Origin: Alphaproteobacteria bacterium
GTDB lineage: Bacteria; Pseudomonadota; Alphaproteobacteria; Caulobacterales; Caulobacteraceae
Assembly (NCBI GenBank): GCA_018820665.1
Contig: JAHJNW010000084.1
Location: 1 to 64,000 of the forward strand
Length of the DNA: 64,000 bases
Direction: 5' to 3'
The position numbers and the translations under genes were made by a program. A model generated the notes under the pieces. The model saw only the letters and a list, made by a program, of their open reading frames with translations, was not told where the DNA came from and searched no databases. Below, piece by piece: positions 3,912 to 6,931 of this stretch. Position 1 is the first letter of the stretch; every line of letters starts with the position of its first letter.

Positions 3912-4375
3912 GGAAAGTGAGCGTCATGACTGAACAAGAACAGAAAACCGCCAAGAGCCGTCGCAAGCGCAGCGGCTTTACACTGGTCGAGCTGATGGTG
4001 GTGATCGTCATCATCGGCCTGCTGGCGACGGTGGTGGCGATCAACGTCCTGCCCAGCCAGGACCGGGCCATGGTCGGCAAGGCCCAGGCCGACATCTCGG
4101 TGCTGGAGCAGGCGATCGAGACCTATCGCCTCGACAACCTGACCTTCCCCGACGACCTGCAGGCCCTGGTCACGCCGCCGGCCGGACTGGCCCGGCCCGA
4201 ACGCTATCGCGAAGGCGGCTATGTCCGTCGTCTGCCGGAAGACCCGTGGGGTAATCCCTACCAGTACCGCCGCCCGAGCGCGCACGGCGGCCAGTTCGAC
4301 GTCTTCTCCCTCGGAGCCGACGGTCGCGAAGGGGGCGAGGGCAATGACGCCGACCTCGGCAACTGGCAGGTTTAA
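3908..4375 (+). CDS. gspG: Major pseudopilin GspG (start GTG 3908 or ATG 3926)
   Basis: Prepilin signature SGFTLVELMVVIVIIGLLATVVAINVLPSQDRAMVGKAQADI and GspG C-terminus (DPWGNPYQYRRP...FDVFSLGADGREGGEGNDADLGNW). Confidence 0.95.
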   Translation: MRKVSVMTEQEQKTAKSRRKRSGFTLVELMVVIVIIGLLATVVAINVLPSQDRAMVGKAQADISVLEQAIETYRLDNLTFPDDLQALVTPPAGLARPERYREGGYVRRLPEDPWGNPYQYRRPSAHGGQFDVFSLGADGREGGEGNDADLGNWQV

Positions 4376-4901
4376 GGGCGCTATCGCTCGCGACACGGTC
4401 GCTCGCTGCTTGAGCGCCGACGACCGCGCTCAAGCAGCGCCGCGCCGCGCGTGGCGCGATAGCGCCAGAAAAGCGCGCGCGGGCTTCACGCTCGTCGAGC
4501 TGCTGATGACGGTGACGATCATCGGTCTGGCCGCCGGCGCCGTGGTGCTGGCCGTGCCGGATCCCCGGCCGTCGGTGGCGGCGGACGCCGAGCGCTTCGC
4601 CGCGCGCCTGTCGCGGGCGCGCGAGGAGGCGGTGCTGACCAACCGGCCGGTGGCGGTCGAGGCGACGACGGCGGGCTATGGCTTCTCCGTCTTCGACGGC
4701 GCGGACTGGTCGCCGCTGAGCGACGGGCCGTTCGGGCAGGAACGGTGGAGAGAGGGCGTGTCGGTGTCGCCGACGGAACCGGTCCGGGTGGTGTTCGATC
4801 CGACCGGCGTGGCCGAGCCGGCCACCCTGACGCTGAGCCGCGACGGGCGCGCCTCGCGCATCGAGATCGACGGGGCCGGCGAGGTGACGATCAATGGTTG
4901 A
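4344..4901 (+). CDS. gspH: Minor pseudopilin GspH with an unusually long, repeat-containing leader
   Basis: RAGFTLVELLMTVTIIGLAAGAVVLAVPDPRPSVAADAERFAARLSRAREEAVL. The plausible in-frame ATG at 4344 overlaps gspG and gives a 47-residue leader crossing the 4377-4466 palindrome. Confidence 0.85.
   Translation: MTPTSATGRFKGAIARDTVARCLSADDRAQAAPRRAWRDSARKARAGFTLVELLMTVTIIGLAAGAVVLAVPDPRPSVAADAERFAARLSRAREEAVLTNRPVAVEATTAGYGFSVFDGADWSPLSDGPFGQERWREGVSVSPTEPVRVVFDPTGVAEPATLTLSRDGRASRIEIDGAGEVTING
4377..4466. repeat. Palindromic repeat element, copy 1, inside the gspH leader
   Basis: Outer inverted repeat ggcgctatcgc (4377-4387) / gcgatagcgcc (4456-4466); inner inverted repeat cgctgcttgagcg (4404-4416) / cgctcaagcagcg (4427-4439); contains gctcgcgacacggtcgctcgct, shared with copy 2. 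Confidence 0.88.
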
Positions 4902-5256
4902 TCGTACCGCGAGAGAGGGCTTCACCCTGATCGAGCTGCTGGTCGCCGTGGCGGTGTTCAGCCTCGCCGCCATGGCCTTGCTGAATTTGTCGGGCGAGAA
5001 CACCCGGTCGGCGGCGCGGGTCGAGACGCGGACGCTGGGCGGGCTGGTGGCCGAGAACCTGGCGGTCGAGGCGATGATCGCCCCGCAGATCGCCGAGGGC
5101 CAGACCTCGGGCGTGGTTCCGCTGGCCGGCCGTCAGTGGACCTGGACCCGCGCCGTCGAGGGCGTCGACGCCGGCATGCTGCGCATCGACATCGCGGTCG
5201 CGACGGACGAGGGCCAGGCGGCGGATCGCGTGCTGTTCCGGGCGCGCGTGTCTTGA
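4894..5256 (+). CDS. gspI: Minor pseudopilin GspI
   Basis: REGFTLIELLVAVAVFSLAAMALLNLSGENTRSA...; 8-nt overlap with gspH. Confidence 0.9.
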   Translation: MVDRTAREGFTLIELLVAVAVFSLAAMALLNLSGENTRSAARVETRTLGGLVAENLAVEAMIAPQIAEGQTSGVVPLAGRQWTWTRAVEGVDAGMLRIDIAVATDEGQAADRVLFRARVS

Positions 5257-5945
5257 ACGTGGCCCCTCACGCTCGCGACGCGGTCGCTCGCTTCTTGAGG
5301 GGCGGGATGCTGCACGTCCGCGCTCATGCAGCGAGCGACCGCGTCGCGAGCGGTAGCGCACCACGACGCGACGGCTTCACCCTGGTCGAGGTGCTGGTCT
5401 CGCTGTTGATCTTCGCAATGATCGCGGCGGCGGGGGCGGCGGTGCTGAGCCTGTCGATCGACAACCGCTTCGCCATCAAGGCCGCCACCGACCGCACCGG
5501 CGACCTGCAGCGGATGCGCAGCCTGCTGAAGGCCGATCTGGGGCAGGCCAGCGGCCGGCGCTCGCGCGGCCCGACCGGCCGGCCGATGCCGCAGCCGATG
5601 AGCGGCCCGACGGCGCCGGGCGATCCGGTGCTGGTGCTGACGCGGGCGGGCTGGACCAATCCCGGCGAACAGCCGCGGCCGTCGCTGCAGCGGGTCGAAT
5701 ACCGGCTGGTCGAGGACCGGCTGGAGCGGCGCGTCGCCACCCATCTGGACGGGGCGCGGCCGGGGCCGCCGCAGGTGCTGTACCGCGGCGTGAGCGACGT
5801 GACCGTGGCCTTCGTCAGGGATGGACAGGAGACGCCGGCCTATATCGTCACGGCGGAGCGGCCGCTGCCCGACGCGGTGCGGATGCGGATGACGCTGGAC
5901 GGCTATGGGCCGGTCGAGCAACTGTTTCTCGTGGGCGGCGGCTGA
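5253..5945 (+). CDS. gspJ: Minor pseudopilin GspJ (start TTG 5253 or ATG 5307; leader contains a palindromic element)
   Basis: RDGFTLVEVLVSLLIFAMIAAAGAAVLSLSIDNR plus GspJ-like body. Stop overlaps gspK start. The start is ambiguous because the leader is repeat-derived. Confidence 0.85.
   Translation: MNVAPHARDAVARFLRGGMLHVRAHAASDRVASGSAPRRDGFTLVEVLVSLLIFAMIAAAGAAVLSLSIDNRFAIKAATDRTGDLQRMRSLLKADLGQASGRRSRGPTGRPMPQPMSGPTAPGDPVLVLTRAGWTNPGEQPRPSLQRVEYRLVEDRLERRVATHLDGARPGPPQVLYRGVSDVTVAFVRDGQETPAYIVTAERPLPDAVRMRMTLDGYGPVEQLFLVGGG
5271..5351. repeat. Palindromic repeat element, copy 2, inside the gspJ leader
   Basis: Perfect 21-bp inverted repeat gctcgcgacgcggtcgctcgc (5271-5291) / gcgagcgaccgcgtcgcgagc (5331-5351); arm is near-identical to copy 1. 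Confidence 0.92.
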
Positions 5946-6931
5946 TGCGGCGCGGCGCGAACAAACGCGAGGGCATGGCCCTGCTGACCGTGCTGCTGCT
6001 GGTGGCGGTGATGTCGGTGGTGGCGGTGGCCGTGCTGGACGACGTGCGCTTCTCGGTGCGCCGGGCGACCAACGCCGAGACCCAGGCCCAGGCCCAGTGG
6101 TACGCCTCGGGCGCCGAGGCCCTGGCCCGGCGGCAGGTGGCGGCGCTGCTGACGCTGGGCCCGGCGCGGACGCCGCTGGAGCCCGAATGGAACGGTCGGC
6201 GGCTGAGCTTTCCGATCGAGGCGGGGGCGATCAGCGCCGTGGTCACCGACGGCCAGGCCTGTTTCAACCTCAACAGCCTCGTCGAGGGCTTCGGCGAGGA
6301 CCTGTTGGCGCGGCCGCTGGGGACGGCGCAATTCCTCGCCCTCGGCCGGGCCGTCGGCGCGCCGGACAGCCGCATGCGGGCGGTGGCCGACGCCCTGACC
6401 GACTGGCTGGACGCCGACGGGACCGCGCGACCGCTGGGGGCCGAGGACGGGGCCTATGCGGGGCTGGCGACGCCGTACCGGACCGGCGGGGTGATGCTGG
6501 CCGAGGTCAGCGAGCTGCGCGCGATCAAGGGCGTCGACGCTGACCTGTATCGCCGGCTGCGGCCGTTCGTCTGCGCCCTGCCGACCAGCCAGCTGTCGCC
6601 GCTGAACGTCAACACCCTGACCCCCGAACAGGCGCCGCTGTTGATGATGCTGAGCGACAACGCCCTCGGTCCCGAGAGCGCCCGGGCCGTGATCGCCCGA
6701 CGGCCGCAGGGCGGGTGGTCGGACGCCGCCGCCTTCTGGGCCGAGCCCGCCATGGCGACGGCGACCGTCCCGGAAGAGGTTCGCAATCAGGTCACCGTCC
6801 TGACCCGCTACTTCAATCTCCGCGTCGAGGTGGACTATGGCGGCGGCCGCGCCGTCCGGACCGCCCTCCTCCACGCACAGCCCGGCGGCGCCGTCCGCAC
6901 CGTCATCCAGCGCTGGACCCCCGAAGAATGA
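5945..6931 (+). CDS. gspK: Type II secretion minor pseudopilin GspK
   Basis: N-terminal hydrophobic segment GMALLTVLLLVAVMSVVAVAVLDDVRFSVRRATN; SPLNVNTLTPEQAPLL helix-hairpin motif typical of GspK. Confidence 0.93.
   Translation: MRRGANKREGMALLTVLLLVAVMSVVAVAVLDDVRFSVRRATNAETQAQAQWYASGAEALARRQVAALLTLGPARTPLEPEWNGRRLSFPIEAGAISAVVTDGQACFNLNSLVEGFGEDLLARPLGTAQFLALGRAVGAPDSRMRAVADALTDWLDADGTARPLGAEDGAYAGLATPYRTGGVMLAEVSELRAIKGVDADLYRRLRPFVCALPTSQLSPLNVNTLTPEQAPLLMMLSDNALGPESARAVIARRPQGGWSDAAAFWAEPAMATATVPEEVRNQVTVLTRYFNLRVEVDYGGGRAVRTALLHAQPGGAVRTVIQRWTPEE

Follow-up and report, generated by a model that had tools for sequence, protein, structure and literature searches.

REP-like palindromes in the prepilin leaders of type II secretion pseudopilins of Brevundimonas

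The two long palindromes in the type II secretion (T2SS) operon studied here are copies of a REP family dispersed throughout the genus Brevundimonas, and they lie in the segments of gspH and gspJ which encode the prepilin leaders. Probably these REPs would be translated with the leaders and tolerated because prepilin peptidase discards the leader; translation, cleavage and disposal are inferred from sequence. Comparison with related operons showed insertion, frame lock, confinement to leaders, recurrence and near-neutral sequence. It is inferred that such long leaders are produced, cleaved and disposed of at no cost, which would explain the survival of the REPs; the mechanism of insertion is likewise inferred.

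The T2SS operon and its palindromic elements

The window, i.e. the whole stretch of 64,000 nucleotides that was analysed, belongs to a Brevundimonas-type genome (2.96 Mb, 88% complete) whose nearest named relatives are Brevundimonas. The gene order of its T2SS operon is gspE-gspF-gspG-gspH-gspI-gspJ-gspK, and the following features were identified:

3926..4375, + strand: gspG, major pseudopilin; Pfam T2SSG and N_methyl; leader MTEQEQKTAKSRRKRSG, without a REP in this species
4344..4901, + strand: gspH; start ATG within the gspG 3' end, in another frame; Pfam GspH and N_methyl
4344..4484, + strand: GspH prepilin leader, 47 aa, predicted cleavage after Gly
4377-4466, + strand: REP doublet 1, in the gspH leader, starting 2 nt past the gspG stop; units REP+ ~4377-4418 and REP- ~4425-4466
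4894..5256, + strand: gspI; leader MVDRTAREG, without insertion
5259..5945, + strand: gspJ; probable GTG start at 5259; Pfam T2SSJ and N_methyl
5259..5375, + strand: GspJ prepilin leader, 39 aa, which holds the second REP doublet
5261-5359, + strand: REP doublet 2, in the gspJ leader; units REP+ ~5262-5303 and REP- ~5319-5360
5945..6931, + strand: gspK; leader without a REP

N_methyl matches place the class III prepilin signal, in which the leader ends in G and is followed by FTLVE and a hydrophobic helix, in GspG, GspH, GspI and GspJ. The GspH leader measures 47 aa in the window vs 14-18 aa in insertion-free relatives. Direct reading of the sequence reproduced the span 4377-4466 which an earlier note had given for the first palindrome, together with the leader peptides and GFTLVE motifs quoted there. 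The same note had placed the second palindrome at 5271-5351; this is its perfect core, but the element is larger and in full extends over 5261-5359. Doublet 1 folds with -71 kcal/mol (z -6.3) and doublet 2 with a z of -7.9. The REP core motif was matched 3 times in the window vs 0.16 expected from shuffles. A covariance model applied to the 64 kb recovered exactly four units, at 4375-4420 (+), 4423-4468 (-), 5260-5305 (+) and 5317-5362 (-), and no other unit anywhere in the window. The claim that there are only two copies is true of the 64 kb, but not of the genome, which carries approximately 30 REP units.

The REP family

The REP unit is a hairpin of 41-46 nt with the consensus GGCGCTANCGCTCG-4 nt-NCG-4 nt'-CTCGCTGCTTGAGCGCC, and each palindrome of the window is an inverted pair of such units. 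By the covariance model there are 30 units in the window genome and 24-94 in each of six relatives, and the core is present in 126/131 genus genomes. Almost every unit outside the T2SS operon is intergenic, and many abut stop codons, as judged from ORF and codon-usage context at sampled loci. Both elements of the window are inverted doublets (+ then -); single units and direct tandems are commoner in the genus. Written as GGCGCTANCGCTCG...TTGAGCGCC, the consensus has no terminal GTAG/CGTC, NTAG being subterminal. Searches of Rfam returned just chance hairpin matches far under the gathering scores, and no non-pilin model of NCBIfam matched the leader residues.

No RAYT (Y1 transposase) was found in the window genome at its 88% completeness, and Y1 transposases of the RAYT type occur in just 4 of the 131 genus genomes, on which grounds a RAYT was rejected as the mobiliser. 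The elements are therefore classed as REP-like repeats or REP doublets, and not as a RAYT-driven REPIN system. Of the mobile REP/RPE-like element postulated in the earlier note, the REP part stands; kinship to the Rickettsia palindromic elements (RPEs) has not been shown, and no RAYT explains the mobility.

In an alignment of 48 copies the stems covary, 84 cells having changed on both sides vs 24 in shuffles. This was not taken as proof of selection in situ, since stem types differ genome-wide and the insertion of different subtypes would explain the covariation. A stem type specific to leaders (CCGC/GCGG, with SRRAAS instead of SDRVAS) was also discarded as a candidate, because the CCGC/GCGG type dominates the intergenic copies as well (genomes G029 and G037).

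REPs at the 3' ends of genes (~1501-1546 in both L171 and L176) seem to provide the upstream gene with its final codons and its TAG stop. In-frame REPs of one and the same register (AQAASDRVASDSA) were observed inside SelO and at the N-terminus of ThiC (L217 ~1018-1063 and L222 ~1002-1047, both G037), and several more, again in that register, in a capsule polysaccharide protein (L110 1487-1532 and 1880-1982, G119). Pseudopilin leaders are the main coding site of REPs and not the sole one, the SelO, ThiC and capsule protein copies being RPE-like insertions in relatives.

Distribution among pseudopilin leaders

GspG was searched in 131 genus genomes and 69 T2SS operons were compared. A REP was present in at least one pseudopilin leader of 43 of these 69 Brevundimonas operons; the species concerned numbered 25/69 for gspG, 31/68 for gspH, 4 for gspI and 10 for gspJ. 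The gspK leader was free of REPs in all 32 operons measured (the window and 31 relatives). The copies were distributed over the G, H, I and J leaders as 33, 51, 4 and 13, plus one match labelled 'mature_F'; the latter is a partial-anchor artefact, which spans -50 to -5 relative to the cleavage Gly of gspG and so lies in the gspG leader. All 102 copies in the 69 operons fall in gspG/H/I/J leaders, with no REP in the mature parts of the pseudopilins, and in the 20 complete 13-kb operons the same is true of 52/52 REPs. By our own arithmetic, the leaders of seven genomes hold ~28 of 340 units (8%), in segments which without insertions total ~0.2 kb per genome. Parsimony required at least 19, 17, 4 and 5 changes in presence or absence for the G, H, I and J leaders, respectively (at least 45 in total), on a quick tree which has several weak forks and does not separate gains from losses. 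In 20 operons from other genera of the Caulobacteraceae the leaders are short and free of REPs; in these operons the objection anticipated in the earlier note, that orthologues elsewhere might carry the leader sequence as conserved protein, does not hold.

The second T2SS paralogue of the genus did not serve as a replicate; its leaders contained no REP, only one weak match and one other palindrome being seen (L141). The latter (..RRKPGPS..WVPAFAGMSG..) is in frame in a minor pseudopilin leader before GYSLMEA. In genome G104 (C1:1305060 and 1980112) the gspG region with leader REPs occurs twice with identical match scores. In L054 and L056 the cleavage-site codons of gspG/gspH/gspJ make a palindrome (CGACAAGGGTTCACCCTTGTCG). 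In L054 the leader of gspG is nearly identical to that of gspH, REP and cleavage-site DNA included, which suggests that recombination between leaders may have taken place.

Against plain tolerance stand the gspK leader, equally cleaved yet REP-free in 32 operons, the small number of REPs in gspI, and the REP-free leaders of the second paralogue. Occupancy of the leaders is far above that of ordinary intergenic DNA, and it exceeds what tolerance alone would give unless there is a local insertion preference or recombination between leaders. Preference for sites adjacent to stop codons is one candidate cause, and copying between leaders, as in L054, is another. Selection for hairpins that set pseudopilin ratios cannot be excluded as a third, since 96.8% of stem cells are paired in leader REPs (98.2% elsewhere) and such pairing is not required by tolerance alone.

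If the hairpins were kept to regulate the operon, a block to 3' exonucleases or a stalling of ribosomes would set the ratio of major to minor pseudopilins, and leader translation would be a by-product. This is a possibility which we consider doubtful without dismissing it. Enrichment at the gspF/G (25/69) and gspG/H (31/68) junctions is strong, and the stems stay paired. The effects of REPs in E. coli reportedly depend on proximity to a stop codon, and most gspH REPs begin no more than 11 nt past the gspG stop (20 of 31 cases at 2-11 nt). Published effects on mRNA stability and translation in E. coli (Higgins 1988 and Liang 2015, as cited in PMC8266576) also favour regulation. The REPs of gspG leaders, however, lie 21-195 nt past the gspF stop, often beside the cleavage site; the presence of REPs differs among close relatives, unrelated repeat families occupy the same sites, and other genera manage without leader REPs. 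Leaders might also be preferred sites because the hairpins have a dual role, as disposable peptide and as tuners of pseudopilin stoichiometry at the mRNA level, i.e. a fast-evolving expression dial gained and lost among species; this too seems unlikely, if conceivable. The preferred reading remains that of a translated and discarded peptide.

Evolution of the leaders

In a clade of nine species pN/pS was 0.84 for the gspH leader and 0.76 for the gspJ leader, compared with 0.03 and 0.13 for the mature parts of GspG and GspH, respectively. Few codons enter the estimate, the repeats are counted in it, and recombination could have raised it. The net charge of long gspH leaders is 0 to +12, mostly strongly basic, in keeping with the positive-inside rule, which calls for a neutral-to-basic leader charge (PMC10191384). 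Repeats other than the REP have also entered leaders: one dispersed repeat unlike the REP (..KPGP..VPAFAGM.., with ~70 matching pieces in G103) is in frame in a gspI leader, and another, unrelated one (58 pieces in G035) is in frame in both the gspG and the gspH leader. The presence of several repeat families at the same leader sites argues for a permissive site rather than for a function of one sequence.

It is very unlikely that the REP-derived leader has been adopted for a function in the protein, whether as a basic topology signal, in SRP targeting or in contact with a chaperone. The basic charge of the long leaders would suit such a role, as would the requirement that prepilin leaders be hydrophilic and cytoplasmic (PMC4471445, PMC10191384); but pN/pS is near 0.8, whole units are often lost among close relatives, and short leaders suffice elsewhere.

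Start codons and reading frame

In the insertion-free operons L021, L024, L027 and L028 no start codon lies between the gspG stop and GFTLVE, and gspH must therefore begin at an ATG within the gspG 3' end, the homologue of which in the window is ATG 4344. A gspH start of this kind, within the gspG 3' end and in the other frame, was observed in most species of the genus and in many species of other Caulobacteraceae genera (L225-L244). Counted from the gspG stop, GFTLVE lies at a distance of 1 mod 3 in 64/68 species. Of the gspG/gspH junctions bearing insertions (>40 nt), 35/39 are frame-locked to the ATG inside gspG, and the other 4 have their own ATG past the stop. In gspJ, alignment with L021 pairs GTG 5259 with the ATG of MAPDSRGAPARTG^F, and the REP element thereby splits a leader built as MAP...AP.

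A single register, open throughout, is used by all 102 leader units (22 forward and 80 reverse); for both arms of the window palindromes this had already been noticed. Directly repeated units in leaders are spaced by 48 or 54 nt, multiples of three in 21/21 cases vs 5/19 elsewhere. The related antisense peptides pointed out earlier are real, and they are a necessary consequence of the codon boundaries, which coincide in the sense and antisense REP. The forward unit has stops in its other frames when written TAAC, and the register used does not have many equally open alternatives. The weight of the shared register as an independent sign of design is reduced by the stops which many copies have in other registers. 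Reverse frame 1, though open, is not used in leaders.

A start downstream of the palindrome, which the earlier note regarded as a possible refutation, is not available to the window gspH before GFTLVE, and throughout the genus 59/71 REP-bearing leaders have no ATG, GTG or TTG after the last REP. That translation of gspH and gspJ begins past the palindromes or at their inner edge, leaving the REPs untranslated and ordinarily intergenic, is hardly credible: many N-terminal intragenic REPs of other bacteria have been deemed extragenic for such a reason (PMC3733652) and the window offers an in-frame gspJ ATG at 5307 within the loop and a gspH TTG at 4410 within the palindrome, but most leaders lack a late start, the single open register is kept in 102/102 units, 3n spacing is found in leaders only and the gspH distance is locked to the ATG inside gspG. 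The comparative evidence would thus place the N-terminal REPs of pseudopilin leaders among translated sequences, actual translation being inferred in the absence of proteomic or Ribo-seq data. An open register, 3n spacing and near-neutrality form the pattern that would be expected of a peptide which is translated and then discarded. The suggestion that the insert is tolerated as it is discarded fits the one register, the near-neutral leaders and the lack of REPs in mature parts.

Proposed explanation

Prepilin peptidase cuts the leader off at the cytoplasmic side. REP doublets have entered the parts of gspH and gspJ that encode the leaders, and would be translated as part of the preprotein. 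The leader, cytoplasmic and hydrophilic, would be removed by prepilin peptidase at G^F, so that nearly any in-frame, stop-free, net-basic insert may be tolerated. The pseudopilin genes overlap or are almost contiguous, so that insertions at their junctions must be translated; the survivors would be just those of length 3n in the single open register, which would make the leaders a refuge that selfish repeats have reached again and again.

Bacterial operons with tightly packed genes are usually regarded as having little space for selfish repeats, and a cleaved leader opens such space inside the genes of a packed operon. Many independent insertions in one genus constitute a natural experiment on the tolerance of proteins for foreign sequence, and leader REPs provide a test bed for the permitted length and the arbitrariness of prepilin leaders. 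Intragenic REPs at the N-terminus have often been set aside as untranslated, yet they can be genuine coding insertions. The question is also raised of how a REP family spread with RAYT nearly absent from the genus.

Comparison with known systems

Like the REPs and REPINs of Pseudomonas, E. coli and Stenotrophomonas, the Brevundimonas REPs are short dispersed palindromes, mostly intergenic and often beside stop codons, occurring singly or in inverted pairs, each pair folding as one long hairpin. They differ in having no RAYT in the window genome (Y1 transposase in 4/131 genus genomes) and in repeatedly colonising one translated site class, the pseudopilin leaders.

The leaders themselves resemble class III signal peptides in being hydrophilic and ending in Gly before FTLVE, where prepilin peptidase cuts (cleavage is inferred here). 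They are unlike them in length: the window leaders are of 39 and 47 aa and the longest in a relative is of 86 aa, vs published lengths of 6-26 aa (PMC4471445). Long leaders also occur in S. sanguinis (PMC10191384).

With RPEs the Brevundimonas units share the property of being palindromes in frame inside alphaproteobacterial protein genes and tolerated by the host protein, a trait seen in T2SS leaders, SelO, ThiC and the capsule protein. RPEs are ~150 bp long and occur in many unrelated genes (PMC10969869), whereas the Brevundimonas units are of 41-46 nt (doublets ~90-100 nt) and mostly intergenic, with in-frame copies concentrated in cleaved leaders; RPE DNA sequences were outside the comparison.

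The intragenic GTAG/CGTC REPs (Di Nocera 2013, PMC3733652) also lie inside ORFs, several of them N-terminal and some in repair genes. The published super-families carry terminal tags which are not evident in the Brevundimonas REP, and the main text of that paper contains no Caulobacter, Brevundimonas or prepilin leaders. A search of the open-access literature returned no report of REPs within prepilin leaders. The N-terminal cases of Di Nocera 2013 were often thought untranslated, whereas the frame lock in Brevundimonas indicates translation. RPEs and intragenic REPs being already known, the recurrent colonisation of prepilin leaders appears to be new, as would be the support which comparison of operons gives to translation of these N-terminal REPs.
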